From Bacteroidota bacterium (GTDB lineage Bacteria; Bacteroidota; Bacteroidia; B-17B0; Aurantibacillaceae), in assembly GCA_947450025.1 (NCBI GenBank), contig CANFTW010000010.1:62001-126000 (forward strand): a DNA stretch of 64,000 bases, given 5' to 3'. This document shows, in pieces, positions 1 to 51,964 of the stretch. Positions within the stretch are counted from its first letter, which is position 1; each line of letters opens with the position of its first letter. Below the pieces are notes generated by a model. The model was not told the DNA's origin. It did no database searches and saw only the letters and a program-made list of their open reading frames with translations. Both the position numbers and the translations under genes were made by a program.

Positions 1-368
1 GACAAAATGGTTTGTTTAATGAAATTTTAAAATGTAATATGGATGGAGATTTTTTTGCCAGATTATGTAAAAATGCTAAAGTAAAACAAATAAATATGGC
101 TTTAGCTAATTTTAGAAAACAACCTTATACTAAGGCATCTGAAAACAATCCAAAATGGAATGAACTGGTTAAAGAAGAAATTAATATGGAAAGAATAATG
201 ACCTATAATACTTTATATATCTCAAAATATATTCCATTTAAATACTCCTATTTTATAAAATTACCATTTCAAATTATGAGAGTTTTGAAAAGAAGTTTGT
301 TGTTTCACTTTTATAAAAAAAGAAAAGAAATTTCATTTTATAAAAAAACATTTAATTCTAACTTTTGA
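1..368 (+). CDS. Glycosyltransferase family 2, C-terminal fragment (5' end outside window)
   Basis: The reading frame is open from the first complete codon (position 3) and ends at a stop at 366-368, so this is the tail of a gene that begins upstream, not a small complete gene. The segment NMDGDFFARLCK resembles the acceptor-side part of family 2 glycosyltransferases, where an acidic D-x-D/W-x-R-L motif follows the catalytic region. A basic, aromatic C-terminal tail (many Lys, Phe, Tyr) could contact the membrane. Its stop overlaps the start of the next glycosyltransferase by 4 bp, so they are probably translated together. It most likely adds one sugar of the repeat unit made by this locus. 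Family assignment rests on about 120 residues and is moderate. Confidence 0.6.
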   Translation, partial: QNGLFNEILKCNMDGDFFARLCKNAKVKQINMALANFRKQPYTKASENNPKWNELVKEEINMERIMTYNTLYISKYIPFKYSYFIKLPFQIMRVLKRSLLFHFYKKRKEISFYKKTFNSNF

Positions 369-4413: not shown

Positions 4414-4419
4414 TAAAAA

Positions 4420-5559: not shown

Positions 5560-5592
5560 TTTAATTATCTTTATTTACTAATTATTATTTAC

Positions 5593-6732: not shown

Positions 6733-7523
6733 TGATTCAGCAACTTGATGTATTTGGATTAAAAGTTAGTGATTTTGAATTAAATGATGTGAGAGCCCTT
6801 TATAATAAAACCATAAAGGAAGATCAGTCCATTGTTATTTTTGGTCACTCATTAGGTTATATCACTCTTTTTAAAAAGTATCCTGAACTATACAAAATTA
6901 TTAATTCTTTTGACCTACTAGTTTGTGATGGAACACAATTTAATTGGTATTGTAAACAAAATAATTTCAAACTAAAAACCGTTATTTCAATTCCCGATAT
7001 TACAATTAGTTCATTAGATTACGCAAATACAAATCATTTAAAAATACTTTTGTTTGGCGCTAAAGAAAGCATTAACAATAAGGCATGTGAAAACCTAAAA
7101 TTACAATATCCTAATATCACAATACTACCTGGTATTAATGGTTATTTTAATGAATCACAAGAACTAGATATTGTATCAAAAATAAGTGAATTAAAACCTC
7201 ATATATTATTAATAGGAATTTCAACTCCAATTAAAGAGCAATTTGTTTACAAGTACAAAGATCAATTAAATACCAATATTATCATCCCGTGTGGAGGTAT
7301 GATTGATGTGCTTTCTGGATACACAAAACAAAGTCCTGAATGGGTAAAAAAGATGGGATTTGCAACTCCTTATCGAATCATTCAAGAACCAAAAAGACTT
7401 TTTTGGTTGCACACTTGGATGATTTATGAAATTATATTCAAGATACTTCCTATTACAATGTTCAATAAAATTATTCTTCGAAAAAAAGAATTTAACCTAG
7501 TTCAAAAATATCTTAAGAAATAA
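6732..7523 (+). CDS. WecG/TagA/CpsF-family glycosyltransferase (GT26)
   Basis: A 263-residue soluble or peripheral membrane glycosyltransferase. It begins at the ATG overlapping the fnlC stop; an upstream in-frame ATG at 6714 would lie within fnlC and is less likely. Family motifs are VCDGTQFNW (the conserved acidic D-G region), LLFGAKESINNKA, LLIGISTPIKEQF (usually G-x-P-x-Q-E) and CGGMIDVLSGYTKQSPEW followed by the C-terminal EPKRLFWL segment. Characterised members add the second sugar (ManNAc or ManNAcA) to a polyprenyl-PP-linked amino sugar. Here it probably acts just after the initiating transferase at 9625. The C-terminal basic/hydrophobic appendage matches the membrane-targeting tail of TagA enzymes. 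Confidence 0.88.
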   Translation: MIQQLDVFGLKVSDFELNDVRALYNKTIKEDQSIVIFGHSLGYITLFKKYPELYKIINSFDLLVCDGTQFNWYCKQNNFKLKTVISIPDITISSLDYANTNHLKILLFGAKESINNKACENLKLQYPNITILPGINGYFNESQELDIVSKISELKPHILLIGISTPIKEQFVYKYKDQLNTNIIIPCGGMIDVLSGYTKQSPEWVKKMGFATPYRIIQEPKRLFWLHTWMIYEIIFKILPITMFNKIILRKKEFNLVQKYLKK

Positions 7524-9541: not shown

Positions 9542-9624
9542 CCCATACAAAAGGGAAACAAATAGATGATTTGTATTTATAAAAAAAATAGTAAATTAGC
9601 TTATTAATCGTAATCAATTAACTA

Positions 9625-10659
9625 TTGAAGTCTTTTTTAATAGATAAAGTCGGAGAAAAAGCCTATGCTTTTTTAAACAAATATATTCCAACGGAATCTA
9701 AAAATTCATTTGTAATAAGCACTACTGATGAATTTAATATCCTCAATAATTCATCCGAATTTAATGCCATTATTAATTTAAGTAAGGTTAATAATATACG
9801 ATTCATTAATAAATTTTTTGAGGCAGTTAATCGTAAATTAAAAAACGATGAACTTTTTATTGTCTGTTGCGAAACCATTACTGCCCGAAAAGAAAGACAT
9901 CGTATGGGACATATTCCTGTCATCAAAAACATATATTTTATTATTGAATTTATTTTTTTAAGAGTGTTTCCGAAATTATGGGGTTTTAAAAAAATCTATT
10001 TCTTAATTACCAAAGGCCGAAATCGATTATTATCGAAAGCAGAAGTGATGGGCCGTTTGGTAAGTTGTGGTTTTAAAATTGAAGCCAGCGAGGTTTTTGA
10101 TGGACTCACGTATATTGTTGTTAAAAAAGTTGGAGAACCCTTCTTTAACATGAATGTAAGTTACGGGCCTTTATTTAAAATGGAGCGAATTGGAAAACAT
10201 GGCAAAATCATCGGAGTATATAAATTCAGAACCATGCATCCTTATGCCGAATATCTGCAAGATTACGTATTACAACTCAACGGCTATGCCACAAACGGAA
10301 AACCTAAAGACGATTTTAGATTAACGCCATGGGGTCGCGTGTTACGAAAATACTGGTTAGATGAACTCCCACAATTAATTAATTTATTAAAAGGAGATAT
10401 TAAATTAGTAGGTGTACGCCCTATATCTAAACGTTATTCACAAGATATCCCTGAGGCGCTTCAAGCTCTGCGTATAAAATTTAAGCCTGGTTGCATCCCT
10501 CCATACGTCGCTTTAAATCGCATGGGCGATGTGGAATCGGTGTTACAAGCAGAACGAGAGTACTTATTTGAAAAAATAAAACGTCCCTATACCACCGATA
10601 CAAGCTATTTTTTTAGAGCCATGTACAATATTGTCATTAAGTCTAAAAGAAGTGCATAG
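9625..10659 (+). CDS. Initiating sugar-phosphate transferase (WcaJ/WbaP/PglC catalytic domain) with unusual N-terminus
   Basis: A 344-residue protein whose last 170 residues are a bacterial sugar transferase (polyprenyl-phosphate hexose/HexNAc-1-phosphate transferase). Visible motifs are the KFRTM segment, TPWGRVLRKYWLDELPQ, and NLLKGDIKLVGVRPIS. It should start repeat-unit assembly on undecaprenyl phosphate. The usual membrane helix before the domain is replaced by about 170 residues resembling the second half of a SAM-methyltransferase fold (FINKFFEAVNRKL, then SKAEVMGRLVSCGFKI) with a hydrophobic stretch (YFIIEFIFLRVFPKLWGF). No SAM-binding glycine loop is visible, so this region is probably structural or a membrane anchor. 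The start is a TTG; no nearby ATG is suitable. Confidence 0.82.
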   Translation: MKSFLIDKVGEKAYAFLNKYIPTESKNSFVISTTDEFNILNNSSEFNAIINLSKVNNIRFINKFFEAVNRKLKNDELFIVCCETITARKERHRMGHIPVIKNIYFIIEFIFLRVFPKLWGFKKIYFLITKGRNRLLSKAEVMGRLVSCGFKIEASEVFDGLTYIVVKKVGEPFFNMNVSYGPLFKMERIGKHGKIIGVYKFRTMHPYAEYLQDYVLQLNGYATNGKPKDDFRLTPWGRVLRKYWLDELPQLINLLKGDIKLVGVRPISKRYSQDIPEALQALRIKFKPGCIPPYVALNRMGDVESVLQAEREYLFEKIKRPYTTDTSYFFRAMYNIVIKSKRSA

Positions 10660-10703
10660 ATCCATTATCTATTTATATAAACAAACTATATTATTAACTA
10701 AAA

Positions 10704-10735
10704 CTTGTCCATCTCTTGCCTAATAAGTAACTTTA
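10704..10735 (+). promoter_or_regulatory. Candidate Bacteroidota promoter for the export/autokinase pair
   Basis: CTTG at 10704-10707 and TAACTTTA at 10728-10735 are separated by 20 bp, close to the Bacteroidota sigma consensus TTTG-N19-TAnnTTTG. The site lies 26 bp before the Wza-like ATG in the 101-bp gap after the sugar transferase. It suggests the export genes can be transcribed on their own. Two mismatches make this tentative. Confidence 0.4.
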
Positions 10736-10760
10736 TCAGTTTACCTTTCACTCCCTAATT

Positions 10761-11543
10761 ATGAAATTAATCAATAACACTAAGCGTTATATAGGTATTT
10801 TATTAATAAGTATATTTGTTTTTTCTTGCACAAGTAAAAAGAAAATGATTTATTTTCAAGGAGGCATGCCTTCTGCTGAAAATAACAAAAACTATACCCC
10901 CTTATTTCGTACAGATGATTTTTTATATATCACTGTACTTTCAATTGATGGGGAAGCTGTTAAGCCTTTTAATCTGCCACCACCAAGCTTAACATCTCAA
11001 CAAGGTGGTTATACACAAGGTGCTCCTAGCACTTCTGGATATCTAGTTGATAGTGATGGAAATATTGATTTTCCAGTAATCGGTAAAATTAAATTAGCTG
11101 GGCTAAATCGTATGCAAGCTATTGAATTATTAAAAAATAAACTTCAAGTATATATTAATAATCCAACTGTGCAAATTAGAATACTAAATTATAAGGTAAC
11201 GGTATTGGGAGAGGTAAGAAATCCTGGTTCATTTAATATTCCAAACGAACGCATTACAATTTTAGAAGCTTTAGGCGTAGCAGGTGATTTAAACATAACA
11301 GCAACAAGAAAAAATATATTAGTAATTAGAGATGTCGATGGTAAAAAAACAGAAACCAAAATAGATTTAACATCAAAAGAATTATTTGCCTCTCCAGTAT
11401 ACTACCTCCAACAAAATGATGTTGTTTACGTTGAACCAAATCGTGCAAAAATAAATTCTGCCGTAGTTAATGCTTCTAATGTCGGTATAGTTATTTCTGT
11501 AATTTCATTATTAACTACCCTAACAGTATTATTATCTCGCTAA
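10761..11543 (+). CDS. Polysaccharide export outer-membrane lipoprotein (Wza/BexD-like)
   Basis: A 260-residue lipoprotein. The signal peptide ends in a lipobox with Cys23 (FVFSC), so it should be lipidated and sorted to the outer membrane. The polysaccharide-export domain follows with FRTDDFLYITV and SGYLVDSDGNIDFPVIGKI, then an SLBB-type domain beginning VTVLGEVRNPGSF. A C-terminal hydrophobic segment (VGIVISVISLLTTLTVLL) is common in Bacteroidota homologues and may act like the amphipathic barrel helix of Wza. The protein should form the outer-membrane exit channel for the polymer. It is followed 6 bp later by its expected partner, the Wzc-like co-polymerase. Confidence 0.92.
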   Translation: MKLINNTKRYIGILLISIFVFSCTSKKKMIYFQGGMPSAENNKNYTPLFRTDDFLYITVLSIDGEAVKPFNLPPPSLTSQQGGYTQGAPSTSGYLVDSDGNIDFPVIGKIKLAGLNRMQAIELLKNKLQVYINNPTVQIRILNYKVTVLGEVRNPGSFNIPNERITILEALGVAGDLNITATRKNILVIRDVDGKKTETKIDLTSKELFASPVYYLQQNDVVYVEPNRAKINSAVVNASNVGIVISVISLLTTLTVLLSR

Positions 11544-11549
11544 TAAATC

Positions 11550-13949
<2,400 letters not shown>

Positions 13950-16971: not shown

Positions 16972-19900
16972 TTACATGTTTCTGCGGTACTGACCTCCAA
17001 CCTCAAATAAGCAATTGGTGACTTCGCCTAAGCTCATAAACTTAGCAGCGTCCATTAATTCAGCAAAAATATTTTTATTATGAATTGCTGCAGTTTGTAA
17101 ACGTTTTACCATATCATCATGCTTATCCGCATGTGTTTTATGTAACTCTGCTAGCATGGTAATTTGATATTCTTTTTCTTCGGTAGTAGAACGAATTACT
17201 TCGCGAGGTAATACCGTTGGACTTCCTTTACTTGATAAGAATGTATTGACACCAATGATTGGATACTCTCCTGTATGTTTTAAGGTTTCGTAGTATAAAC
17301 TTTCTTCTTGTATTTGTCCGCGTTGGTACATGGTTTCCATAGCGCCCAACACACCGCCACGTTCTGAAATTCTATCAAACTCAGTTAATACAGCTTCTTC
17401 TACCAAGTCGGTTAATTCTTCAATAATAAAAGAACCTTGTAATGGATTTTCGTTTTTAGCTAAACCTAATTCACGGTTAATGATTAATTGAATCGCCATT
17501 GCTCTACGAACCGACTCTTCAGTAGGTGTTGTGATGGCCTCATCATATGCGTTTGTATGTAATGAATTACAGTTATCGTAAATGGCATACAATGCTTGTA
17601 AGGTTGTACGAATATCATTAAAATCAATTTCTTGAGCATGTAACGAACGACCTGACGTTTGAATATGGTATTTCAACATTTGACTTCTTTCGTTTCCACC
17701 GTAACGTAATTTCATGGCCTTCGCCCAAATACGTCGACTTACACGGCCAATCACACTGTACTCAGGATCGATACCGTTACTAAAGAAGAATGATAAGTTT
17801 GGTGCAAAATCATCAATGTGCATTCCACGACTTAAGTAGTATTCTACAAACGTGAAACCGTTAGCTAAAGTAAATGCTAATTGAGAAATAGGATTTGCTC
17901 CAGCTTCTGCAATGTGATAACCAGAAATAGAAACCGAATAGAAGTTGCGTACTTTTTGATCGATGAAGTATTGTTGCACATCACCCATCACACGTAAGCT
18001 AAACTCTGTACTAAAAATACACGTGTTTTGCGCTTGATCTTCTTTTAAAATATCGGCTTGCACGGTACCACGCACTTGTGATAATGTCGTTGCTTTAATT
18101 TTTTCGTAAACATCTTTAGGCAATACTTGATCTCCTGTAACGCCTAATAACATTAAGCCTAAGCCATTATTACCTTCTGGTAATTCCCCTTGGTAAGTAG
18201 GACGAACAGTTCCTTTTGCCTTATAAATAGCGGCAATTTTTGCTTCGACTTCTTTTTCTAATTTGTTTTCTTTGATGTATAATTCACATTGTTGGTCAAT
18301 CGCCGCATTCATAAAAAATGCTGCCATCGTTGGCGCTGGACCATTAATCGTCATCGAAACCGATGTTTTAGGATCTGCCAAATTGAAACCAGAATATAAT
18401 TTCTTCGCATCATCTAAACAACAAATACTCACACCCGAGTTTCCAATTTTTCCATAAATATCCGGACGATAATCAGGATCGTTACCATATAAAGTCACGC
18501 TATCAAACGCTGTACTTAAACGAGCAGCAGGTAATCCTTTACTTACGTAATGGAAACGTTTATTAGTTCTCTCTGGTCCACCTTCTCCAGCAAACATACG
18601 AGTTGGATCTTCGCCCTCACGCTTGAAAGGATAAATACCAGCCGTATAAGGAAAATCTCCAGGGAAGTTTTCTTGTAAGGTCCATTTTAAAATATCCCCC
18701 CAAGAGGTATATTTTGGAGAAGCAATTTTTGGAATTTTTGAATGCGATAATGATTCGTAATGCGTTTCAATTTTTAAAACTTTATCGCGTACTTTAAATT
18801 CATAGAACTCGCTGCTGTATAATTTCTTCTTTGCTTCCCAACCTTCAATCACTAATAAATGACGAGGATCTAAATCTAGTTTTGTTTTTTCAAATGCTTC
18901 TTGTAAACCTTTCACCAAACGATCTTTGTCGTCCATTTTAGATTCAGAAATCGTTTCGATGGTTTTTTGAATACCATATAATTTTTGAGCAACCTCTGCT
19001 TGTGCATTGGCTCTCTTATCGTAGTTACGGTTGTTTTCAGAGATCTCTGATAAGTAACGTGTTTTTGAAGGAGGAATGATGTAAATTTTTTCGCTCATTT
19101 CTTCCGTAATATGAAACTGAGAAGCTAAAGCATTATTACCTGTTTTCTCAACCATGGTATTCATCACCGCCTTGTATAAACGGTTCATTCCTGGGTCGTT
19201 GAATTGAGAAGCAATGGTGCCAAATACTGGAATATCTTCATCTGCAATTTCCCATAAGTTATGATTACGTTTGTATTGTTTCTTTACATCACGAATAGCA
19301 TCTAAAGCACCGCGTTTATCAAATTTGTTCAAAGCAATAATGTCAGCAAAATCTAACATGTCAATTTTCTCTAACTGAGTGGCTGCACCGTATTCTGGAG
19401 TCATCACGTACAAGCTCATATTAGAGTGTTCGATAATTTCAGTATCTGATTGTCCGATACCAGACGTTTCTAAAATAATTAAATCGAAATTAGCTGCTTT
19501 ACAAATGTTAACTGCATCTTGCACATATTTGCTTAATGCTAAATTACTTTGACGAGTAGCTAATGAACGCATATACACGCGATCATTTTTAATTGCATTC
19601 ATACGAATACGATCTCCTAATAAAGCACCGCCCGTTTTACGTTTTGAAGGGTCAACCGAAATAATCACAATTTGTTTGTCTTTGAAATCAATTAAAAAAC
19701 GACGAACCAATTCATCTACTAAGCTTGATTTACCAGCTCCACCTGTACCAGTAATCCCTAACACAGGAGTTGCTGATTTTTCCGCTTTTGCTTTTAGTTC
19801 GTTTAATAAACCAATATTTTCATCATTAAAATTTTCGGCAGCAGAGATAATACGAGCAATTGATTTGAAGTCTCTCTCAGCAATTTTAGCCACATCATTT

Positions 19901-20352
19901 TTAATATTAGTCCCAGTTGCATAATCACACTGACGCAACAAGTCATTGATCATTCCTTGCAATCCCATCGCGCGGCCATCATCTGGCGCATAAATACGAG
20001 CAATCCCATAGTTATGTAATTCTTGAATTTCTTCAGGAAGAATGACACCACCACCACCACCAAATAATTTGATGTGCTCGCAGCCTTTCTCTTTCAACAA
20101 ATCATACATATATTTAAAATACTCCACATGTCCGCCTTGGTAACTCGTTACAGCAATAGCATTCGCATCTTCTTGAATAGCACAGTTCACAACCTCTTGC
20201 GCGCTTCTATCGTGACCCAAGTGAATAACCTCCGCTCCACTTGATTGAATGATACGGCGCATAATATTAATAGCGGCATCATGCCCATCAAATAATGCGG
20301 CAGCAGTAACAATACGAATTTTATGTTTTGATTGATATGGTATAGTTTCCAT
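16972..20352 (-). CDS. icmF: Fused isobutyryl-CoA mutase IcmF (B12-dependent, with G-protein chaperone)
   Basis: A 1126-residue fusion in the IcmF order. Residues about 12-140 are a cobalamin-binding domain with D22-G-H24 (DGHDAAIN; His24 the likely lower cobalt ligand) and a GGGGG turn. Residues about 195-420 are a MeaB-like GTPase with P-loop GTGGAGKSS (202-210), [27 protein letters not shown] and NKFD. The rest is a methylmalonyl-CoA-mutase-type TIM barrel ([56 protein letters not shown]). The family interconverts isobutyryl-CoA and n-butyryl-CoA, or pivalyl- and isovaleryl-CoA, and the GTPase protects and reloads adenosylcobalamin. The gene stands alone. It is not the two-subunit methylmalonyl-CoA mutase because all three domains are in one chain. 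Confidence 0.93.
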
Positions 20353-28006: not shown

Positions 28007-29674
28007 TTAAAACTGAAAATAAATAAACGGTTGCATCTCGCCACTCACCAGCTGATAAATGCAAAACACAAAAATGATTGCTACTAGGCTCATCAGTGGT
28101 AAAGGTAATTCAGCAAATTTTAATCGGTATTTTTCCTTAATTGTTTCTGGAATCCAGTGTATTAAATAGCCCAATAAAATTACTGAAAATACTAAAGCAT
28201 AACCTTGAATAATATGAAAGGTTAAGGCGGCTCCAAAATGATTAGTAATTCTATCAAAAATTAAACTAACGGTATCCAAACTATCGCTTCTAAAAAAGAT
28301 ACGAGTAAAGCTAATAAACGTTAGGGTGAAAAATACCATAACTGCTCTAATAATAAATGAATTAGAACCTTTGAACGGAGAAATTTTTTGCCAAAGTTTA
28401 TGTACAACTAAACCTAATCCATTTAATCCACCCCAAATAATAAACAACCAAGAACTTCCATGCCAAAAACCTCCTAGCAGCATGGTGACTAATAAATTGA
28501 TATTGGTATTCACACTTTGTTTTACTTTAGGGAAGAAATAAGCCAATAACACTAATATAATGGCAATGAATAGCAACACTAAGAGTAGCCAAATTTTACC
28601 AGTAAGCATTACCAATACAAACGATAAAAAAGCAATGCAAATGTATGAGCCAATGGTACCTGATTTATTGCCACCTAAAGGGATATATAAATAATCTTTT
28701 AACCAAGTTGATAATGAAATATGCCAACGTTTCCAAAACTCACTCACGTCCTGTGCCTTATAGGGCGATTTAAAATTGGTTTTTAAACGGTACCCTAGCA
28801 ATAATGCTACACCAATAGCAATATCTGTATAACCGCTGAAATCGGCATAAATTTGTAAGGAGTATCCAAAAATACCAAATACCGTTTCAACTCCTGAATA
28901 GTAATTAGGATTATCAAATATTCGATCAATATAATTGACGGCTATATAATCTGCTAATATTTTTTTTCCTAAACCATTTAATATCCAAAACACCGCATAA
29001 CCAAATTCTTTTCGTGATAAATTATAAGGCTGATATATTTGATACAAAAACTCATTGGCCTTAACAATCGGTCCTGCCACTAAATGCGGGAAAAAGCAAA
29101 CAAAGAAACCATAGTCAAAAATGGATTTAACAGGCGTCACCTTTCCTCTATACATATCAATGGTATAAGAGATTGACTGAAACGTGAAGAATGAAATACC
29201 GACTGGTAAAATTAATTTATCTACTGGGTCTGATGTTCCAAAAAAGGTATTACTAAATTGAGTGAAGTGATTAAAGAATGAAATGTCTGTACCTGCCAGT
29301 TGATTAACACTCTCAGTAAAAAAGTATGCATATTTAAAATAACACAATAAAGTTAAATTAAGCAGTAAGCTAATTGTTAGATAAGTTTTTTTGCGAGTAA
29401 CTGATTTACTCTGATAAATAAGCCTTCCCCAATTATAATCACTGATGATGGTAAAAATAAGTAAGATGAGAAAGACGCCACTCGTTTTATAATAAAAGAA
29501 AAGGCTAACCAATAATAAGTAAAAGGTACGCAGGGTGTTCTTTTTATAAATCATGGAATAGATTCCAAGAACAACGGCAAAAAATCCCCAAAAATACAAT
29601 TGAGTAAAAATCACTGGTTGTCCTTTGACATAAAGGAAACAGGATTTGAGATATGTTGTTATGTCGCTATTCAA
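28007..29674 (-). CDS. MBOAT-family membrane O-acyltransferase (AlgI/DltB-like)
   Basis: A 555-residue polytopic membrane protein with ten or more predicted helices. MBOAT hallmarks are clear: DFSGYTDIAIGVALLLGY, SEFWKRWHISLSTWLKDYLYIPLGGN and the invariant His in GGFWHGSSWLFIIWGGLNG. The family moves acyl (usually acetyl) groups across the inner membrane onto periplasmic glycans, as AlgI does in alginate or PatA in peptidoglycan O-acetylation. Two SGNH hydrolase-type proteins lie directly upstream on the same strand, the usual partners that complete transfer or trim acyl groups. Substrate is unknown; a surface polysaccharide is most likely. Confidence 0.92.
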   Translation of the reverse strand: MNSDITTYLKSCFLYVKGQPVIFTQLYFWGFFAVVLGIYSMIYKKNTLRTFYLLLVSLFFYYKTSGVFLILLIFTIISDYNWGRLIYQSKSVTRKKTYLTISLLLNLTLLCYFKYAYFFTESVNQLAGTDISFFNHFTQFSNTFFGTSDPVDKLILPVGISFFTFQSISYTIDMYRGKVTPVKSIFDYGFFVCFFPHLVAGPIVKANEFLYQIYQPYNLSRKEFGYAVFWILNGLGKKILADYIAVNYIDRIFDNPNYYSGVETVFGIFGYSLQIYADFSGYTDIAIGVALLLGYRLKTNFKSPYKAQDVSEFWKRWHISLSTWLKDYLYIPLGGNKSGTIGSYICIAFLSFVLVMLTGKIWLLLVLLFIAIILVLLAYFFPKVKQSVNTNINLLVTMLLGGFWHGSSWLFIIWGGLNGLGLVVHKLWQKISPFKGSNSFIIRAVMVFFTLTFISFTRIFFRSDSLDTVSLIFDRITNHFGAALTFHIIQGYALVFSVILLGYLIHWIPETIKEKYRLKFAELPLPLMSLVAIIFVFCIYQLVSGEMQPFIYFQF

Positions 29675-29777
29675 TGCCTAATTTATATAATTAATGACTA
29701 AAGGGAGTCAGGACTATACAAGCTCTTGCATCTATTCAAGCTCTTATGCCCATTAAATCTCTTTTCGTCTCTTCTGT

Positions 29778-31034
29778 CTATTTAGTCTCTTTCACTTTAC
29801 TATTGTACTTATAGCTTCTATTAATGGCATCAAACATTAAATTAGCTAAAATGGTGTATCCCCTTCCATTAAAATGCACTTTGTCTTTTGCTGCTAAACC
29901 TGCTTTTTGCCATTTGTATATAGACTTATATCCTCCCATCACGGCATACAAATCATACACTGCAGCTTTGTGTTTTTCCATTAAAAGAAACATGGCCTCT
30001 TCTGCTTTAATAGGTCTTTTATTGGCTGTCCGTTTAGTCATGTAGTTATCTGTTACAGTCGTAAATAAAATAGCACAGTTAGGCGAAACTTGTTGAACTA
30101 AAGAAATTAAACTATCATAATTTGCAATAAATTGATCTTTAGAAAAACTTGTGCTATGGGTATCGTTTACTCCTAATGAAAAAATAACTAAATCAGGAGG
30201 GATGGTGTTTAACTCATGCACAAATTCCTGACATTTTAAATACGAAGAAGTACTCGCGCCATTTACGCCGATGGCCGCATAATAAAAACCCGGCTTGTCG
30301 TTCTCAATACTAAATCCGCGCAACATAAAGTTAGGGATGATGGAATCTTTTTTTATCAAATTAAAATTCACAGAATCAATATAAGTTTCGAAAGAAAACT
30401 CTGTATACCCTAATTTTATAAAATCTTTTCTACTATACTTTACGCCGATTTGTTGATCTAAAGAAAATTCAAAACTTGGATTAAAATTATGATACACTCT
30501 AAGAGAATTAAATGTTTGATGATGGTTATTTTTTAATAAATTAAATCCAAAGGTATTAGCGCTATCGTTCGTAATACCTGCCATTCCTGCCATTCCTAAA
30601 TTATCACACATTTCTTTTGCTAAAGCACTTCGTTTACGAATCCACTTACCCGTTGTATAAGATTTAAAAAAATGTGGGCTATTTGTTTTCACTATTTTGA
30701 AAGGAAAAATAAACGTTCCACCTCCTTTAAAATTTCCCATGCTTTGAAACCCATCCATTAGCACTTCAGTCCAAAAACCAGCTTGAATATGAGATCCTCC
30801 AAAATGCACAACCGTTACTTTTTCACGTTTACCTTCTCTCATCTCATCAATTTTTTTATAAAAACTCATGATTTGTGAGCTATCTTTAGCTAAATACAAT
30901 TTACTTTCCTGATAGTTAATAAAAGGATATTGTTGCGCTTTCGAGTGATTTGATAAAATAAAAAAGACACAAGTTAAAAGACCAGTGAAAATAAAATTTA
31001 TTTTTTTTGTATACCTATTACTAATTATTGTCAT
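29778..31034 (-). CDS. SGNH/GDSL-type hydrolase or acyltransferase, periplasmic
   Basis: A 418-residue exported protein; the N-terminus has a hydrophobic signal/anchor (FIFTGLLTCVFFILSNHSKAQ). SGNH blocks are recognisable: VVHFGGSHIQAGFW (block I, Ser in GGSH), SLGVNDTHS (block III, with Asn) and KDKVHFNGRGY (block V, the catalytic Asp-x-x-His). It is 20 bp downstream of a second SGNH gene and upstream of the MBOAT gene, so the three probably form an operon. In such modules SGNH proteins receive acyl groups from the MBOAT or remove them from the glycan. Which of the two roles applies cannot be told from sequence. Confidence 0.82.
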   Translation of the reverse strand: MTIISNRYTKKINFIFTGLLTCVFFILSNHSKAQQYPFINYQESKLYLAKDSSQIMSFYKKIDEMREGKREKVTVVHFGGSHIQAGFWTEVLMDGFQSMGNFKGGGTFIFPFKIVKTNSPHFFKSYTTGKWIRKRSALAKEMCDNLGMAGMAGITNDSANTFGFNLLKNNHHQTFNSLRVYHNFNPSFEFSLDQQIGVKYSRKDFIKLGYTEFSFETYIDSVNFNLIKKDSIIPNFMLRGFSIENDKPGFYYAAIGVNGASTSSYLKCQEFVHELNTIPPDLVIFSLGVNDTHSTSFSKDQFIANYDSLISLVQQVSPNCAILFTTVTDNYMTKRTANKRPIKAEEAMFLLMEKHKAAVYDLYAVMGGYKSIYKWQKAGLAAKDKVHFNGRGYTILANLMFDAINRSYKYNSKVKETK

Positions 31035-31054
31035 TAATCTTTTCTCCTAAATCC

Positions 31055-32530
31055 CTATTTATTTTTTACAAATTCATTATAATCACTCATCAACGATGAA
31101 TACAATAACACCGCTATTTTACGAGCACCACCAGAGCTAAAATGAATATAATCTTTAGCGCCAATGCCTTGTTCTACCCAAGTTAACATACTGTTTTTAC
31201 CTCCCATACAACTATACATATCAAAAAAAGCACAATCTGTATCAAAAGCTGCTTTCTTAATAGCGTCACGCAAATCTTCTAATTGAGGGTGAGTTTCATA
31301 ATCAGTTCCAACCTTCACGCTCATGTCGGCAGGACCAATGACTAAAATAGAAGCTTGTGGAGCTAATTTTTTTACTATTAAGATTTGTGCTTTTAAATAC
31401 GAACCAAAAGCAATTGCTTGTTCTTTAGTGGTCATATAAGGTAAAGCATTACCACCAAACTGAAGAATAATCAATTTTGTATTGAGGTATTCATAAAATT
31501 GTTTTAATTGGTTGCCATTAATTAAATTAAAAAATGTTCCTGAGCTTCCTCTTAAACCAAAATTATCTACCATCACGCCTTTTCCTCCTTCTAATGAAAC
31601 GCCATAAAAATCAGGACTGTCTTTCCCTTTAAATTTGAACTCTTGTAAGAGTGCTCCTTGATTTAAATTAAATTCTTTGACATTAAAATTTCCGCCAATA
31701 GCTAACGAATCCGAATTATTTAAAGTCCCATTTTCATATAACTCCACATAGGTTTTTGCTTGAGCACCTCCATAAAATAGTTTAATTTTTTTATAGGCCG
31801 CTGCCTTTTGTCCTCCATTTTTACTGGTAACTACTTTTACCCATGCCGATTTATATTGTGTGGTATCAGTAAGTGCGGTGTAATTATAGAATCTTGTAAT
31901 ATGAGCTAATACCCCAAAATTATTATGTTTTACACGCTTATCTTTTCCTGCAAAAACCGCATAACGGTCCCAGCTATTACTCCACGATATTTTATTAATA
32001 ACACTTGGTGTAACTGGAACAAATGAGATGAGGCCTGGACCCTCTCCACCAAATTCACCTTGTAATTTTAATCTTAAATAATCACTAATTCGATCGCCTT
32101 CAATTTGCGAATCCCCATAATGCAAGATCCGCACACTCTTCTCTTCAAGACTAATATTTGCTAGTGAATTAAAAAAAGAGGCTAAGGCTGATTTCGTTTC
32201 ATTTTTATATTGAATACTGGTAATGAGTTTTAAAGAGGTGTCGACATTTACTAATTTTGCAACTGCCGAACCCACTTTTTCATTTTTACTAACTGATGCG
32301 GTATCCTCAGATTCAATCACTTTATCCTCGGCATCTGCTAAGGCAATAATATTTGAAATATCTGTTTTGGCTGAGGGTTTTTCGAGAAACAAAGAAGCAA
32401 AAGTCGGATAATGTATCTCGATGTTTTCAGTAATACGAATTCCTTTTTCAGGAAATACCAAACTTATTAAGCCCAACACAAGGAAAGTGAAAGCCAAAAA
32501 CAAAATAGTATGTAAAGGTTTATGCAACAA
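31055..32530 (-). CDS. SGNH/GDSL-type hydrolase or acyltransferase with N-terminal membrane anchor
   Basis: A 491-residue protein with one hydrophobic segment near residues 9-27 (LFLAFTFLVLGLISLVF) that is probably an uncleaved anchor. An acidic, Ser-rich linker follows to about residue 115. The SGNH blocks are RILHYGDSQIEGDR (block I, GDS), LQFGGNAL (block III) and AKDYIHFSSGGARK (block V, Asp-x-x-His). A beta-rich insertion separates blocks I and III (about 170-310) and may be a carbohydrate-binding module, as in AlgX/PatB-like proteins. The start is a TTG because no ATG precedes the anchor. It is first in the likely three-gene acylation operon. Confidence 0.8.
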   Translation of the reverse strand: MLHKPLHTILFLAFTFLVLGLISLVFPEKGIRITENIEIHYPTFASLFLEKPSAKTDISNIIALADAEDKVIESEDTASVSKNEKVGSAVAKLVNVDTSLKLITSIQYKNETKSALASFFNSLANISLEEKSVRILHYGDSQIEGDRISDYLRLKLQGEFGGEGPGLISFVPVTPSVINKISWSNSWDRYAVFAGKDKRVKHNNFGVLAHITRFYNYTALTDTTQYKSAWVKVVTSKNGGQKAAAYKKIKLFYGGAQAKTYVELYENGTLNNSDSLAIGGNFNVKEFNLNQGALLQEFKFKGKDSPDFYGVSLEGGKGVMVDNFGLRGSSGTFFNLINGNQLKQFYEYLNTKLIILQFGGNALPYMTTKEQAIAFGSYLKAQILIVKKLAPQASILVIGPADMSVKVGTDYETHPQLEDLRDAIKKAAFDTDCAFFDMYSCMGGKNSMLTWVEQGIGAKDYIHFSSGGARKIAVLLYSSLMSDYNEFVKNK

Positions 32531-32859
32531 AGATGAATTAGATATAGCAATATCTAAAATACTTTGTCAAAAGATTAAATGAATCCAATTAGTTTTTCAC
32601 AAAAGCCTTGTAAATAACCGATTTCGAATATTATTAGGTCATTTAGGCTAATGATTTTAGCCAATTTATAGAATTTAAAAACTACAAAGTATGGTGTTTT
32701 AATATTAAATCACTGAATATCAAATATTTATAAATTTTTAAAGGATATAAACAATGAATGAGTTGAATCAAGAGATTTTGTATTTTTTTAGGTAAATCGT
32801 TGATTTTTAGCTAAAATCAGTTATTTTTGCACCCCTTATATTTATTTAAGAAAACTATC
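32531..32859. other. Intergenic region between divergent SGNH and tig genes
   Basis: About 330 bp without a gene. It holds the tig promoter (32800-32829) at its right end and a small hairpin near 32647-32664 (GGCTAA...TTAGCC). The left part must contain the promoter of the acylation operon on the - strand, but I see no convincing consensus match there. The rest is AT-rich and unremarkable. Confidence 0.6.
32800..32829 (+). promoter_or_regulatory. Promoter of tig, overlapped by a palindrome
   Basis: TTGA (32800-32803) and TATTTTTG (32822-32829) are separated by 18 bp, matching the Bacteroidota -33/-7 arrangement; the -7 box matches TAnnTTTG fully. The transcript would start about 25 nt before the tig ATG. 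The spacer contains the near-palindrome GATTTTTAGCTAAAATC (32802-32818), which could be an operator or chance AT-rich symmetry. Confidence 0.65.
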
Positions 32860-34200
32860 ATGAACATATCAAAAAAAGACCTTAACGCATTAACTGCAGA
32901 ATTAAGCATTACATTATCTCCAGCTGACTACGAAACAAAAGTAGAAAATGCGATTAAAAAAGTACAAAAACAAGCGGCATTGCCCGGATTCAGACCAGGT
33001 AAAGTTCCTGTTGGTTTAATAAAAAAACAACATGGTAAATCTATTTTAGTAGATGAAATCAATAAAATATTAAACGAAACTTTATATAATTACATAAATG
33101 ATAATAAAATCGAAATTTTAGGAAATCCAATGCCTAAAGAAGATAGTAACATCGATTTTGATCATCAAACAGAGTGGACCTTTAACTACGAATTAGGTTT
33201 AACTCCGCAGTTTGATGTAACATTAGATAACTCTCAATCATTTGTATATAACACTGTAAAAATTGATGATGAGTTAGTAGAGAAATATTTAAAAGATGTA
33301 AAACGTAATTACGGAAAACCATCTAATCCAGAAGTTGCAGAAGGAAAAGATGTGTTATACATCGATATCGTAGAATTAGATGCGGATAATAATGTGGTTG
33401 CAGGAGGTATTTTTAAATCAACTAGTATTGGAATTGATCGTTTAAAAAATGAATCTGCAAAAGCAAAATTAACTGGTGCTAAAAAAGAAGATAAAATCAT
33501 CATCAACGCAAATGAATTATATGATTCAGCAGTTGACAAATCAATCTCTTTAGGTATTGATAAAGAAGTAGCTGAAAGCTTTAGCTCTAATTTACAATTA
33601 ACAGTGCGCAACATTGCCCGTATGGAAGATGCTGAGTTAAACCAAGAGTTATTTGATAAATTATATGGAGCAGGAACAATTAACTCTTTAGAGGAATTTA
33701 AAGATAAAATCAAAGGTGAATTAGCCTTAATGTTTGCTCAGGATACAGACCGTAAATTTGTTGAAGGTGTTGAAAAAACTTTAGTTGAAAAATTAAACAT
33801 TACTTTACCAGATGAGTTCTTAAAGCGTTGGTTAATGGCGGTTAACGAAAAGCCGTTAACAAAAGAGCAATTAGAAGCTGAATATCCAGCCTATGCAAAA
33901 TCGATGCAATGGAAACTGATTGAAAATAAAATTATTAAAAATAATAATATTGCAGTGACTATTGACGAAGCAAAAGAAGAAGCAAGTAATTACGTGCGTT
34001 CACAATTCGCTCGTTATGGCCAAGCTCCTGAAGAAACTGAAGTGGCTAAAATTGTTGATGGTATTCTAGGAAAACAAGAAGAAGCTCAAAAAATATTTGA
34101 AGGATTATACAGCAAAAAAGTATTAGATGTTTTAAAAACTTCTTGTAAATTAGATACTAAAGAAGTAAGCTACAACGAGTTTTTTGGAATAGCTGAATAA
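32860..34200 (+). CDS. tig: Trigger factor (ribosome-associated chaperone/PPIase)
   Basis: A 446-residue trigger factor. The ribosome-binding N-terminal domain includes LPGFRPGKVP, the signature loop that contacts protein L23. A divergent FKBP-type PPIase domain lies near residues 150-235 (GKDVLYIDIVELDADNNVV), and the C-terminal half is the helical SurA-like chaperone body. The ATG at 32860 is chosen over an upstream in-frame TTG at 32827 because the TTG lies within the -7 promoter element. Trigger factor binds nascent chains at the tunnel exit. In many bacteria clpP-clpX follow tig; here they do not. Confidence 0.95.
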   Translation: MNISKKDLNALTAELSITLSPADYETKVENAIKKVQKQAALPGFRPGKVPVGLIKKQHGKSILVDEINKILNETLYNYINDNKIEILGNPMPKEDSNIDFDHQTEWTFNYELGLTPQFDVTLDNSQSFVYNTVKIDDELVEKYLKDVKRNYGKPSNPEVAEGKDVLYIDIVELDADNNVVAGGIFKSTSIGIDRLKNESAKAKLTGAKKEDKIIINANELYDSAVDKSISLGIDKEVAESFSSNLQLTVRNIARMEDAELNQELFDKLYGAGTINSLEEFKDKIKGELALMFAQDTDRKFVEGVEKTLVEKLNITLPDEFLKRWLMAVNEKPLTKEQLEAEYPAYAKSMQWKLIENKIIKNNNIAVTIDEAKEEASNYVRSQFARYGQAPEETEVAKIVDGILGKQEEAQKIFEGLYSKKVLDVLKTSCKLDTKEVSYNEFFGIAE

Positions 34201-34253: not shown

Positions 34254-35393
34254 ATGCAAGGAGTTTATATAACAAAATCATCTAAATTTTTACCTAATCA
34301 TCCCATTTCAAATGATGAAATGGAAGAGTATTTAGGAATGATAGATGGCATTCCTTCAAAAGGTAAACGATTAACGCTTCGTAATAATGGAATAAAAACA
34401 CGTTATTATTCCCTTGATAAAAATGGTCATTCCACACACTCTAATGCGCAAATGGCAGCATTAGCCATAGAAAAATTAACGGACGATCATTTTAAAATAC
34501 AAGATATTGAACTTTTAGCTTGTGGAACAGCCTCTCCTGACAATCACATGCCTTCTCATGCAGTGATGGTTCATGGAGAATTAAAAGGCGGAGCTCCCCT
34601 CGAATTAATATCTCCTTCTGGCTCATGTTGTGCAAGTATGCAGAGTTTAAAATCTGCCTACTTGTCAATATTAGCAGGTAATACATCTAATGCAGTAGTT
34701 ACGGGTTCTGAGAAATTATCATCCTTTATGCTGGCTTCTCATTTTGAAAAAGAAACAGAGCGCTTAGCAGAAATGGAGCAGAATCCTATCATTGCTTTTG
34801 AAAAAGATTTTTTACGTTGGATGCTTTCAGATGGTGCCGCTGCTTTGTTATTAGAAAACAAACCACGTCCTCATTCTACTAACTTAAAAATTGAATGGAT
34901 AGATATTCGATCTTACGCTAATGAATTAGATACCTGTATGTATGTGGGCTCTGAAAAAAATGAAGATGGAAGTACTAAAGGTTGGAAAGAATTTACACCA
35001 CAGGAGTGGTTACAGAAATCGATTTTTTCCTTTAAACAAGATACTAAGCTATTAGGTAAAGAGATTGTTCCAACAGGTACTAAATATTTAAAAGAAATAC
35101 TTGACAAAAGAGGTTTTGATGTCACAACGATAGACTATTTTCTTCCTCATTTGTCCTCTGAATTCTTTAGAGCAAAAATTGCCGAAGAAATTTTAAAATA
35201 CAATATTGATATACCTCAAGAAAAATGGTTTACTAATTTATCCACTACCGGAAATATTGGCTCGGCTTCTATTTTTATAATGGTAGAAGAATTAATGAAT
35301 TCAGGAAAATTAATATCCGGACAAAAAATTTTACTAATGGTTCCCGAAAGCGCTCGTTTTACATATGCCTACTGCTTGCTAACTGTTTGCTAA
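34254..35393 (+). CDS. 3-oxoacyl-ACP synthase III (KAS III/FabH)-like condensing enzyme
   Basis: A 379-residue thiolase-fold enzyme. I start it at ATG 34254, which gives MQGVYITKSSKFLPN, typical of KAS III-like enzymes; a TTG at 34239 is possible. The nucleophile is in PSGSCCASMQ (Cys125/126), the His in DYFLPHLSSEFF (about 294) and the Asn in NLSTTGNIGSAS (about 328). It is longer than housekeeping FabH (about 320) and lacks its typical active-site sequence, so it is probably a specialised enzyme that condenses or transfers an acyl group on an ACP. It overlaps or nearly abuts the next two genes, forming a cassette with a BtrH-like protein. No ACP gene is present in the cassette. Confidence 0.85.
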   Translation: MQGVYITKSSKFLPNHPISNDEMEEYLGMIDGIPSKGKRLTLRNNGIKTRYYSLDKNGHSTHSNAQMAALAIEKLTDDHFKIQDIELLACGTASPDNHMPSHAVMVHGELKGGAPLELISPSGSCCASMQSLKSAYLSILAGNTSNAVVTGSEKLSSFMLASHFEKETERLAEMEQNPIIAFEKDFLRWMLSDGAAALLLENKPRPHSTNLKIEWIDIRSYANELDTCMYVGSEKNEDGSTKGWKEFTPQEWLQKSIFSFKQDTKLLGKEIVPTGTKYLKEILDKRGFDVTTIDYFLPHLSSEFFRAKIAEEILKYNIDIPQEKWFTNLSTTGNIGSASIFIMVEELMNSGKLISGQKILLMVPESARFTYAYCLLTVC

Positions 35394-35413
35394 TTACTCT
35401 TAAAACTTTTCGA

Positions 35414-35812
35414 ATGAAAAAAGAAGATGTGCCTCAAGATCCCTCTGCCTTGACTGGTGTCACTCGCGACGTTTGTTACGTGAAAGACAAAGATGGAAAG
35501 TATACAACAGATTTAAGTATTGGTTGGGACGTCAAAAAACAAGCGTTGGATAATGCTTGGGAGGATATTCATGAACGAGTAACAGAAGCTGCTCATCAAG
35601 TTGAAAAGGGGGAGATTAGTCCAATCTTTTATTTCATGGAAAAAAAATTAATGGACTTAACGTTATTATCTGGTTACACAGGATTTTGGAAATGGACCAT
35701 TAAAAGACATTTTAAACCTTCTGTTTTTAAAAACTTAAGTGAATCTAAATTAAACATCTACGCCAAGGCATTTGATATTAGCGTAAAAGAATTAAAAGAA
35801 TTTAATGGATAA
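35414..35812 (+). CDS. Conserved-looking 132-residue protein of unknown function
   Basis: A small soluble protein that I do not recognise. I start it at ATG 35414 (MKKEDVPQDPS), 21 bp after the KAS III-like stop; an upstream start at 35387 would overlap that gene. It is rich in charged and aromatic residues (DLSIGWDVKKQALDNAWEDIHER, FWKWTIKRHFKP) and looks mainly alpha-helical. There is no signal peptide, membrane helix, or Ser in a DSL motif, so it is not an ACP. Its last 8 bp overlap the BtrH-like gene, implying translational coupling. It may be a partner or scaffold in the cassette. Confidence 0.7.
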   Translation: MKKEDVPQDPSALTGVTRDVCYVKDKDGKYTTDLSIGWDVKKQALDNAWEDIHERVTEAAHQVEKGEISPIFYFMEKKLMDLTLLSGYTGFWKWTIKRHFKPSVFKNLSESKLNIYAKAFDISVKELKEFNG

Positions 35813-36824
35813 AATTATACCCCTATACCAACATATACAAACTGCACATTGTGAAAATGGTGTCGCTACAGGCCTTTTAAAACATCATGGCTTAGACTTT
35901 ATGACAGAGCCGCTTATGTTTGGATTAGGTTCTGGCATCTTTTACATTCATATTCCATTTTTAATGGTAAATGGTGGGCCTGCTATTTCATACAGAAGTA
36001 TGCCGGGTTGGATTTTTAGTAGAGCAAGTAAAGCTTTAGGTATAAAAGTGAATCGTAAGAAATTTAATAATGAAAAAGATGCTTACGATTATTTAAATCA
36101 ACAAATTAGCACAGGAAATCCAGTGGGCTGTCAAGTTGGGGTTTACAATTTACCATACTTTCCTGCCGAATACCGTTTTCATTTCAATGCACACAATTTA
36201 GTAGTTTACGGAAAAGAAAATGGCGAGTATTTAGTGAGTGATCCCGTAATGGAAACCGTAACAAAGCTAACTGAAGAAGACATGCTTAAAGTGCGTTTTG
36301 CAAAAGGACCTCTGGCTCCCAAGGGTCATGTGTACTATCCAGAAAATGTAAAACCAGTTTCAAAAGAACAATTGCAAAAAGCCATTTTCAAAGCTATTCA
36401 TCGAACAGCTTTTGAAATGATGTATTTGCCAGGGCCTATTGTGGGCGTTAAAGGCATTAACTATACTGCCAATCAAATTCGTAAATGGCGAGAAAAATTA
36501 GGGCCAAGAAAAGCAGGATTGTACATGGGTCAAATTGTGAGAATGCAAGAAGAAATTGGGACAGGTGGCGGAGGCTTTCGTTTTTTATATGCAGCGTTTT
36601 TAGAACAAGCAAGCGAAATTACTGGTAATCAAAAACTACTGACTTTATCAGATGAATTTACGAAAGCAGGCGATTTATGGCGCACAAGTGCTATAAACAT
36701 GGGCAGAATATTTAAGGGCAGATTGAATGAACAAAAAGATTTTTTAGAGAGTGCTGACATGCTAGATCATATTGCTTCTATCGAAAAGGCTGCTTATAAA
36801 GAGTTAAGAAAAATAAAGATGTAA
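35805..36824 (+). CDS. BtrH-like acyltransferase (C39-type cysteine-protease fold)
   Basis: A 339-residue protein with an N-terminal BtrH-type domain. The likely catalytic triad is Cys16 (HCENGVATGLL), His130 (FNAHNLVVYGK) and Asp146 (GEYLVSDP), arranged as in C39-like papain-fold enzymes. In butirosin synthesis BtrH uses this fold to move an acyl chain from an ACP to an aminoglycoside. The C-terminal 170 residues are helical (PIVGVKGINYTANQIRKW, GGGGFRFLYAAFLEQAS). With the adjacent KAS III-like enzyme the simplest role is transfer of an acyl group made or loaded there onto an amine. The substrate is unknown. It overlaps the preceding gene by 8 bp. Confidence 0.8.
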   Translation: MDKIIPLYQHIQTAHCENGVATGLLKHHGLDFMTEPLMFGLGSGIFYIHIPFLMVNGGPAISYRSMPGWIFSRASKALGIKVNRKKFNNEKDAYDYLNQQISTGNPVGCQVGVYNLPYFPAEYRFHFNAHNLVVYGKENGEYLVSDPVMETVTKLTEEDMLKVRFAKGPLAPKGHVYYPENVKPVSKEQLQKAIFKAIHRTAFEMMYLPGPIVGVKGINYTANQIRKWREKLGPRKAGLYMGQIVRMQEEIGTGGGGFRFLYAAFLEQASEITGNQKLLTLSDEFTKAGDLWRTSAINMGRIFKGRLNEQKDFLESADMLDHIASIEKAAYKELRKIKM

Positions 36825-36926
36825 TTCCAATTTCTCGCTCGACATAATCCCTTAAAATATGTTAATGATGGGTTACAAAATTGTATGGCATGTCATCAAT
36901 TATTAAACCATCTAAAATTTTTTATC

Positions 36927-37406
36927 ATGAAAACTCAATCCATCATCATCAACAGTATTCTTGTATTAACTATGTGTTTCACTTCATGCAAGGAAGATTT
37001 CTCAGCGTTAATTCAAAAAATTGAAACCACCCAAGTTCAATTGCATCAATACGATTCTACATTAATCTCACAGCGCAATGAACTATCCATGATTCTTTTT
37101 ACTGATACAACAAGGCAGTCGCAAAAAATGAATCCAAGCGACACAACGTTTGTAAATTTGGTAAGCCACCAAAATACCCTCATTACACGCTTAGAAATCA
37201 TCTCTCAAAAAAATAAAGAATTGATAAATCAATTAAATGAACATTCAGCTGACCCCGAAAAAATTTTTAAAGAATATACGACGCATGCAGATGAGTTAGA
37301 ATTAATGAAACCAGAAATCAATTCAACTAAAGAAAGCTATGAAAAACTAGTAAAAAAAGTAGGTGAGGCATTTAAAAACCCTGGGGACATTACAAAAACT
37401 AAATAA
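36927..37406 (+). CDS. Small predicted lipoprotein, unknown function
   Basis: A 159-residue protein with a lipoprotein signal ending CFTSC, so it should be lipid-anchored. I use the ATG at 36927, which places the charged-hydrophobic signal (MKTQSIIINSILVLTM) at the N-terminus; an in-frame ATG at 36885 adds 14 non-signal residues. The mature part is polar and predicted helical with probable coiled-coil stretches (LIQKIETTQVQLHQYDS, NKELINQLNEHSADPEK). No domain is recognised. It ends at a strong shared terminator and lies about 100 bp after the BtrH-like gene, so it may or may not belong to that cassette. Confidence 0.7.
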   Translation: MKTQSIIINSILVLTMCFTSCKEDFSALIQKIETTQVQLHQYDSTLISQRNELSMILFTDTTRQSQKMNPSDTTFVNLVSHQNTLITRLEIISQKNKELINQLNEHSADPEKIFKEYTTHADELELMKPEINSTKESYEKLVKKVGEAFKNPGDITKTK

Positions 37407-51337: not shown

Positions 51338-51399
51338 TGTTATTTTGTTTATTTGTTATTATTTATATTATAATTATTAATCTATTTTCAATCTTTTTG

Positions 51400-51471
51400 A
51401 GCTGTTGAGCGGGATTGAACCGCCGACCTCCTCCTTACCAAGGAGGTGCTCTACCACTGAGCTACAACAGC
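51400..51471 (-). tRNA. trnT: tRNA-Thr (GGT anticodon)
   Basis: A 72-nt cloverleaf on the - strand. Acceptor GCTGTTG pairs with CAACAGC, the anticodon loop is TTGGTAA, and the T arm holds GTTCAAT. CCA is not encoded. It is the tRNA nearest to tuf. Confidence 0.95.
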
Positions 51472-51496
51472 TTATTTACTCTGCTGCTCGCTTTAT

Positions 51497-51507
51497 TTTT
51501 AAAGAAC
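51497..51507 (-). promoter_or_regulatory. boxA-like element, copy 2
   Basis: The - strand reads GTTCTTTAAAA, 25 nt upstream of tRNA-Thr(GGT). It is identical over 11 bases to a second copy at 51934-51944 and close to the E. coli rrn boxA (GCTCTTTAACA). A downstream hairpin (51527-51552) lies in the same leader. An antitermination role is inferred. Confidence 0.5.
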
Positions 51508-51640
51508 TTACTTTTTGTATGCACGAAAAGTCCCTCTATTTTTGGGGACTTTCAAAAGGCTTTGGACCGCATACGCAAGTCTTTCCTGTCTTTTGTCCGT
51601 ATATACGGTTATTCATCAACTTCTCTTCCTTTCAATTCTT

Positions 51641-51716
51641 TGGAGCGAAAGACGGGTCTCGAACCCGCAACCTCCAGCTTGGAAGGCTGGAGCTCTACCA
51701 ATTGAGCTACTTTCGC
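51641..51716 (-). tRNA. trnG: tRNA-Gly (TCC anticodon)
   Basis: A 76-nt cloverleaf on the - strand with acceptor GCGAAAG/CTTTCGC, anticodon loop CTTCCAA and T arm GTTCGAG. It is the only one of the five tRNAs here whose 3' CCA is encoded (51641-51643). Confidence 0.96.
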
Positions 51717-51756
51717 TTAATCTTACTCTTAACAATGCGACAACCATCGTTCAATG

Positions 51757-51837
51757 TGGGGACAGGAGGATTCGAACCTCCGAAGTCGAAACAACAGATT
51801 TACAGTCTGTCCCATTTGGCCACTCTGGTATATCCCC
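51757..51837 (-). tRNA. trnY: tRNA-Tyr (GTA anticodon)
   Basis: An 81-nt class II tRNA on the - strand with a long variable arm. Acceptor GGGGATA pairs with TGTCCCC (one wobble) and the anticodon loop is CTGTAAA. CCA is not encoded. Confidence 0.95.
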
Positions 51838-51848
51838 ATTTTAAAAAG

Positions 51849-51921
51849 AGCCGAAGAAGGGACTCGAACCCCCGACCTACTGATTACAAATCAGTGGCTC
51901 TACCAGCTGAGCTACTTCGGC
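51849..51921 (-). tRNA. trnT: tRNA-Thr (TGT anticodon)
   Basis: A 73-nt cloverleaf on the - strand. Acceptor GCCGAAG pairs with CTTCGGC, the anticodon loop is TTTGTAA and the T arm holds GTTCGAG. CCA is not encoded. It is the first gene of the cluster. Confidence 0.95.
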
Positions 51922-51933
51922 TTATTTTTTTGA

Positions 51934-51944
51934 TTTTAAAGAAC
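51934..51944 (-). promoter_or_regulatory. boxA-like element, copy 1
   Basis: The - strand reads GTTCTTTAAAA between the cluster promoter and the first tRNA. It matches the copy at 51497-51507 exactly and resembles bacterial boxA, which loads NusB/S10 for antitermination. Its position at the start of a long untranslated tRNA leader fits that role. Confidence 0.55.
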
Positions 51945-51964
51945 GTCCCTTTTTAATGGGGTTG

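Follow-up and report, generated by a model that had tools for sequence, protein, structure and literature searches.

A flexirubin consists of an aryl-polyene acid joined to a dialkylresorcinol (DAR) by an ester bond (PMC3992019). Co-expression of darA and darB from Chitinophaga pinensis yields dialkylresorcinol, a darB mutant of Flavobacterium johnsoniae makes no flexirubin, and a ligase-like protein, FlxW, has been proposed for the ester step that joins the polyene to the DAR (PMC3992019). The dar cluster of Azoarcus sp. BH72 (arcuflavin) is arranged as darA ('aromatase'), darB ('cyclase'), a gene for a conserved hypothetical protein (darD), a 'BtrH-like peptidase' gene (darE) and an ABC ATPase gene (darF) (PMC3949708, Table 1), and free DAR was undetectable in Azoarcus extracts (PMC3949708). 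This cluster is proteobacterial, with a xanthomonadin-type polyene, and the names darG and darH there denote different genes from those treated here (PMC3949708). Among acyltransferases, CcbD is a carrier-protein-dependent Cys-His-Glu ping-pong enzyme that takes the acyl group from the carrier onto its own cysteine and then passes it to an amine (PMC12945683), carrier-protein-dependent transfer of hydroxybenzoate has been proposed for CtaG (PMC6772006), and the BtrH_N domain has been described as close to the C39 and C70 families (PMC10318531).

A stretch of 64,000 nucleotides of Bacteroidota DNA (the window) was used for the analysis. Comparison with the flexirubin/dialkylresorcinol clusters of Chitinophaga pinensis, Flavobacterium johnsoniae and Dyadobacter (PMC3992019, PMC9606717) revealed that the DarB, DarG and DarH families are common to both. 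As in those clusters, homologues of DarA, aryl lyase, ketoreductase, ketosynthase, ACP, polysaccharide deacetylase and ABC transporter are present in the window's own genome. Unlike those clusters, the genes are split over at least five places, and the three genes studied here (the trio) lie behind the trigger factor gene with neither darA nor ABC genes beside them. Azoarcus darD and darE are equivalent to the NCBIfam families DarG and DarH by order, the homology of darD with DarG being suggested by this order alone.

Three genes behind the trigger factor gene

All three open reading frames of the trio are intact and lie head to tail on the + strand (Table 1). The tight packing described in an earlier note on this DNA was found, with 20 bp between darB and darG and an 8-bp overlap of darG and darH; darB begins 53 bp downstream of the trigger factor gene. 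No ACP, adenylation enzyme or transporter gene adjoins the trio within the window, as the note had also said. Each of the three proteins scored above the cut-off of its curated NCBIfam model (DarB, DarG or DarH), and by these family assignments the trio is the already named darB-darG-darH of the pathway for dialkylresorcinol/flexirubin, an orange bacterial pigment. The note knew of no described function for the trio, but one exists, given the curated names and the matching order of the Azoarcus cluster (PMC3949708). Since all three genes already have names in a well-known pigment pathway, there is no new pathway to invent.

Analysis of DarB revealed 598.7 bits with NCBIfam NF053539 (resorcinol_DarB; cut-off 550) and 574 bits with NF005293 (StlD/DarB family; cut-off 450), together with the Pfam domain ACP_syn_III_C. 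Housekeeping FabH was rejected as the identity of this gene, FabH-type models giving 76-92 bits against 599 for DarB; the note had likewise set the gene apart from FabH and had seen in it a condensing-enzyme site. The residues of this site are Cys125 (with Cys126 adjacent), His299 and Asn334. The closest solved structure is the Photorhabdus ketosynthase StlD (PDB 5gk0; full-length match, E 1.1e-125), in which the catalytic cysteine occupies the same position, and His299 (in FLPHLSS) and Asn334 (in TGNIGSAS) align with StlD as the Cys/His/Asn site of the thiolase fold. Cys125 was conserved in all 89 sequences and Cys126 in 88 of them. StlD belongs to the dialkylstilbene pathway, whereas the window DarB scores higher with the specific DarB model than with the joint StlD/DarB model. 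DarB-like domains of 380-405 bits were also found within longer frames of 617-675 aa (Table 1), which suggests fusion of a DarB relative with a further domain.

Several other features of the window were recorded. The gene immediately 3' of darH, for a small putative lipoprotein, is kept there in several genus members and was not seen in dar clusters outside the genus. Upstream of the trigger factor gene, a divergent block with, as named by eye, a membrane-bound O-acyltransferase-like gene and two SGNH-type genes is conserved beside tig-darBGH in most genus members. The window also holds an exopolysaccharide/capsule-type block (glycosyltransferases, epimerases, export proteins), assigned by eye only, and a gene for what appears by eye to be a fused, IcmF-like acyl-CoA mutase with B12-binding, G-protein and mutase domains. 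Two + strand open reading frames were rejected as spurious because four tRNA genes on the - strand occupy their region.

Table 1. Positions of the features discussed, in the window, in the window's own genome (G000, by contig) and in other genomes and loci
Feature	Position	Strand	Size or score	Basis
darB, StlD/DarB-type KAS III-like ketosynthase/cyclase	window 34254-35393	+	379 aa	NCBIfam, StlD match, active site
darG, protein with HTH-fold C-terminal domain	window 35414-35812	+	132 aa	NCBIfam, AlphaFold2 fold
darH, probably carrier-dependent, BtrH-like acyltransferase (BtrH_N + DUF4872)	window 35805-36824	+	339 aa	
Trigger factor gene	window 32827-34200			
Small putative lipoprotein gene	window 36885-37406			
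Divergent block upstream of trigger factor	window 28007-32530			
Exopolysaccharide/capsule-type block	window 12-13949			by eye
Putative fused acyl-CoA mutase, IcmF-like	window 16972-20352		1126 aa	by eye
Four tRNA genes	window 51399-51921	-		
Spurious open reading frames	window 51405-51956; 51515-51844	+		
darA	C6:30265-31191 (match 30274-31191)		381 bits	
Aromatic lyase, ketoreductase, ketosynthase, ACP (LDSL motif), LipA-type acyltransferase	C9:73640-78422			
Hotdog-type dehydratase, ABC ATPase, ABC permease	C9:94562-97058			
Polysaccharide deacetylase, two ketosynthases, ACP (LDSI), two more ketosynthase-like genes	C10:5590-10697			deacetylase by eye
DarB-like domains in longer frames	G029:C15:120692-121795; G310:C390:646-1770; G284:C42:17966-19087; G212:C12:543156-544262			
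DUF1702/halogenase-like genes beside dar genes	L015:11132-11935; L064:5553-8105; L023:3982-6554; L082:6739-8430; L013:15555-18104			

Gene order and co-occurrence across Bacteroidota

A set of 80 loci from named genomes was collected with the DarH profile and then subjected to clustering of open reading frames. The usual order in Bacteroidota is small protein, darA, darB, darG, darH, ABC ATPase, ABC permease and ketosynthases, often adjoining polyene genes. With each locus counted once, darG and darH were immediate neighbours in all 86 loci that had calls for the two genes, their overlap having a median of 8 bp, and the other adjacencies amounted to 72/81 for darB-darG, 64/67 for darA-darB and 66/73 for darH-ABC ATPase. 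In three further loci, where darG had been masked by the filter for open reading frames, it lies directly before darH. The sole split of darG and darH was seen in one genome (G014), where darG accompanies darB and darH lies on a different contig. The earlier note had said that its idea of a functional unit would fail if the three genes were rarely adjacent in relatives; the darG-darH and darB-darG adjacencies bear the idea out.

Across an even sample of 296 genomes of the phylum, DarG and DarH were above their cut-offs in exactly the same 23 genomes, and DarB reached at least 500 bits in all 23. One of the 296 (G268) has a DarB relative (499 bits) and neither DarG nor DarH.

A DUF1702 protein and an FAD-dependent halogenase/monooxygenase-like protein recur beside dar genes in several relatives (Table 1), and in one member of the window's genus (L015) the DUF1702 gene lies between darB and darG. 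A tailoring role is possible for these genes, since chlorinated flexirubins are known. DUF1702 was rejected as a fixed dar component: it was present between darB and darG in that one genus member and gave no match in the window's own genome, an absence that is only tentative because the control genomes of this search gave no match either. An open frame beside darB in another locus (L013) was rejected as DarA; it encodes an ion-channel protein, and darA of this relative lies elsewhere in its genome.

The scattered pathway in the window's genus

Comparison of the loci read from genus members revealed darB directly after the trigger factor gene, with darG and darH following at once in most of them; throughout the genus, neither darA nor an ABC transporter gene adjoins the trio. 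DarB is 73-92% identical between congeners that share this gene order. The presence of DarB among 31 relatives was defined by a match of at least 500 bits. By this measure 18 relatives have DarA and DarB together with DarG and a second aromatic lyase that is not HutH, and all four are absent in the other 13, which include four members of the window's genus. DarH was above its cut-off in 17 of the 18. In one genus member (G001, an assembly of 560 contigs) darB, darG, darA and the lyase are kept and darH was not detected, another gene following darG.

The flexirubin genes of the window's own genome, which comprises 28 contigs, are distributed over the places listed in Table 1, and no contiguous cluster was found. 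The block with the polysaccharide deacetylase shares the contig of the trio and lies about 85 kb upstream of it, and two ACP-like genes, one with an LDSL and one with an LDSI motif, are present in the genome, neither of them beside the trio. In other genus members, too, darA is distant from the trio. The spacing of the genes within contigs C9 and C10 shows that the scattering is real and not the product of assembly breaks. Outside the genus, DarB, DarA, the lyase, a ketosynthase and the ABC ATPase have their closest homologues in two loci (L035 and L107), and since both loci have these genes clustered together, the scattering probably arose in or near the window's genus. The pathway as such is ordinary; its scattered layout is uncommon.

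Proposed roles of DarH and DarG

DarH scored 455 bits with NCBIfam NF053550 (DarH_acyl, 'BtrH-related acyltransferase DarH'; cut-off 300), and Pfam analysis revealed BtrH_N (161.5 bits) and DUF4872 (186.2 bits). The BtrH_N domain and a conserved Cys/His/Asp are also those of the butirosin acyltransferase BtrH; compared with BtrH, DarH has its own equivalog model and the DUF4872 domain at its C-terminus. The earlier note had recognised the likeness to BtrH and had said beforehand that its idea would fail if the triad were not conserved among homologues; Cys16, His130 and Asp146 proved invariant in 71 of 71. A search of PDB sequences with the DarH profile found no useful relative, a plasmid search found only distant BtrH-like proteins, all below 60% identity (22-29% among the matches listed), and none of the papers found gives an experimental function for DarH or DarG.

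The predicted structure of DarH (pLDDT 92.7) consists of a papain/C39-like domain and a helical domain, as in CtaG and CcbD. It matched over its full length CtaG (Z 24.4, 295 residues), AziU3 (Z 23.8) and CcbD (Z 22.2, 305 residues), at a sequence identity of 11-15%, and the next-best fold family reached Z 13.8. A role as peptidase was rejected: C39/PCAT domains align with the N-terminal half only, at Z about 13. CtaG and CcbD have Cys-His-acid catalytic residues as DarH has, AziU3 shares the same full-length fold, and the CtaG mutants C11A/H128A/D144N (PDB titles) indicate the same His-Asp spacing as in His130/Asp146 of DarH. Because of this fold and the invariant triad, DarH is most likely the acyltransferase that esterifies the resorcinol with the ACP-bound polyene.

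We consider it highly probable that the trio forms the darB-darG-darH part of a flexirubin-type pathway (dialkylresorcinol and aryl-polyene ester) with its other genes scattered, and that the pathway would operate as follows. From its family and its similarity to StlD, DarB would convert two acyl thioesters into a 2,5-dialkyl-cyclohexane-1,3-dione, which DarA, encoded on another contig and with a role taken from the literature, would aromatise to the dialkylresorcinol. Homology suggests that the aryl-lyase, ketoreductase, ketosynthase and ACP genes located elsewhere make an ACP-bound aryl-polyene acid. Fold and triad point to DarH as the protein that would receive the polyene acyl group from the ACP on Cys16 and, with His130/Asp146 as base, would pass it from Cys16 to a resorcinol hydroxyl, giving the flexirubin ester. 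DarG, a small HTH-fold protein beside DarH, would most likely work together with DarH, or would regulate the block, and this is the weakest step. Family identities, gene co-occurrence, conserved catalytic residues and predicted folds support the explanation as a whole. Among the points against it, CtaG and CcbD act on amine acceptors and their products are amides, not phenol esters, whereas the expected acceptor of DarH is a phenol; and G001 is without a detected darH despite having darB, darG, darA and the lyase.

DarG scored 192.1 bits with NCBIfam NF053545 (flexirubin_DarG; cut-off 170), so that the middle protein, unrecognised in the earlier note, does belong to a named family, although Pfam searched with DarG alone gave no significant family match; a search of PDB sequences with the DarG profile found no useful relative. 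Structure prediction, the check proposed for this protein, gave a Cro/C1-type HTH fold (AlphaFold2, mean pLDDT 82, above 90 at residues about 51-130, the HTH part), with a pair of strands at the N-terminus, followed by a long helix and, at residues about 62-132, the domain of five helices. The model matched DdrO (Z 8.8) and SinR (Z 8.4; 1.5 A rmsd over 61 residues); the HTH fold is also present in enzymes such as HppE and MPnS, and AziU2 was absent among the fold matches listed. Pfam HTH_26 matched 24 of 69 DarG homologues, all weakly (best E 3e-4). The invariant residues are Ser69, Met80, Tyr88, His99, Tyr116 and Phe120, and Lys97/Arg98 are nearly so. Because of the Cro/C1-type fold and the position beside DarH in nearly every genome, DarG is probably either a partner of DarH or a regulator of the dar block.

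A serious possibility, though one that we do not favour, is that DarG acts on the dar genes as their local DNA-binding regulator and does not work as a partner of DarH. The HTH fold of its C-terminal half fits a DNA-binding regulator as well, which counts against the partner role; the HTH_26 matches lend it weak sequence backing, and Lys97 and Arg98 are conserved within the would-be recognition helix. However, operator-reading helices are usually variable, and the stretch with Tyr88, Lys97, Arg98 and His99 is almost unchanged across the phylum. The constant adjacency of darG and darH (86/86 loci), mostly with overlapping ends, against a looser tie to DarB, also speaks against a regulator, as do the occurrence of the fold in HppE and MPnS and the structure of AziU3, which contains another protein, AziU2, in complex with it (PDB title). 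The linkage to DarH, the small size and the two-protein complex of the related AziU3 favour the partner role. The stronger form of this role is offered only tentatively and is rather doubtful: DarG and DarH would be an obligate two-part acyltransferase forming a phenol ester, not an amide, with DarG as partner or ACP-docking subunit and its Cro/C1 fold borrowed from DNA-binding regulators.

The ester role of DarH competes with the published proposal for FlxW (PMC3992019), and a further candidate for this step might be the LipA-type acyltransferase encoded in the polyene block. It is unlikely, in our estimation, that the trio serves flexirubin biosynthesis with the ester formed by either of these two, DarH then catalysing some other reaction through its cysteine, for instance the editing, hydrolysis or loading of precursor chains for DAR. 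FlxW has been put forward for polyene-DAR joining (PMC3992019), a LipA-type gene accompanies the lyase/ketosynthase/ACP block here and in other genomes, and the papain/C39 fold of DarH serves peptidases too; yet DarH matches CtaG, AziU3 and CcbD over its full length at Z 22-24, where peptidase domains reach 13.8, two of the three matched enzymes are described as carrier-dependent acyltransferases (PMC6772006, PMC12945683), and DarH is tied to the DAR genes.

The earlier note had read the trio as a compact stand-alone pathway of undescribed function, loading and transferring acyl groups from the cell's own ACP to make an amide or ester. Acyl condensation and transfer from ACP to ester are very probable, whereas the self-contained part of this reading is very unlikely. 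The absence of darA and a transporter gene beside the trio, in the window and in the whole genus, agrees with it, but all three proteins are named DAR/flexirubin proteins, and DarA, the lyase and polyene genes, ketosynthases, two dedicated ACP-like genes and the ABC transporter are encoded elsewhere in the same genome; moreover, genus members without the trio are also without darA and the second lyase. The broken cluster and G001 without detected darH might suggest that the trio is left over from a pigment cluster that has been lost and is itself decaying, but this is hardly credible against intact reading frames, an invariant DarH triad, DarB identities and gene order maintained between congeners, and the retention of the other pathway genes searched wherever darB is kept.

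This study offers testable roles for DarH as an ester-forming, carrier-dependent acyltransferase and for DarG as an HTH-fold partner or regulator. What is unusual here is only that a pigment cluster lies in at least five pieces around the genome of an uncultured Bacteroidota genus. Where annotation seeks only contiguous clusters, flexirubin pathways split in this way will be overlooked or misinterpreted.
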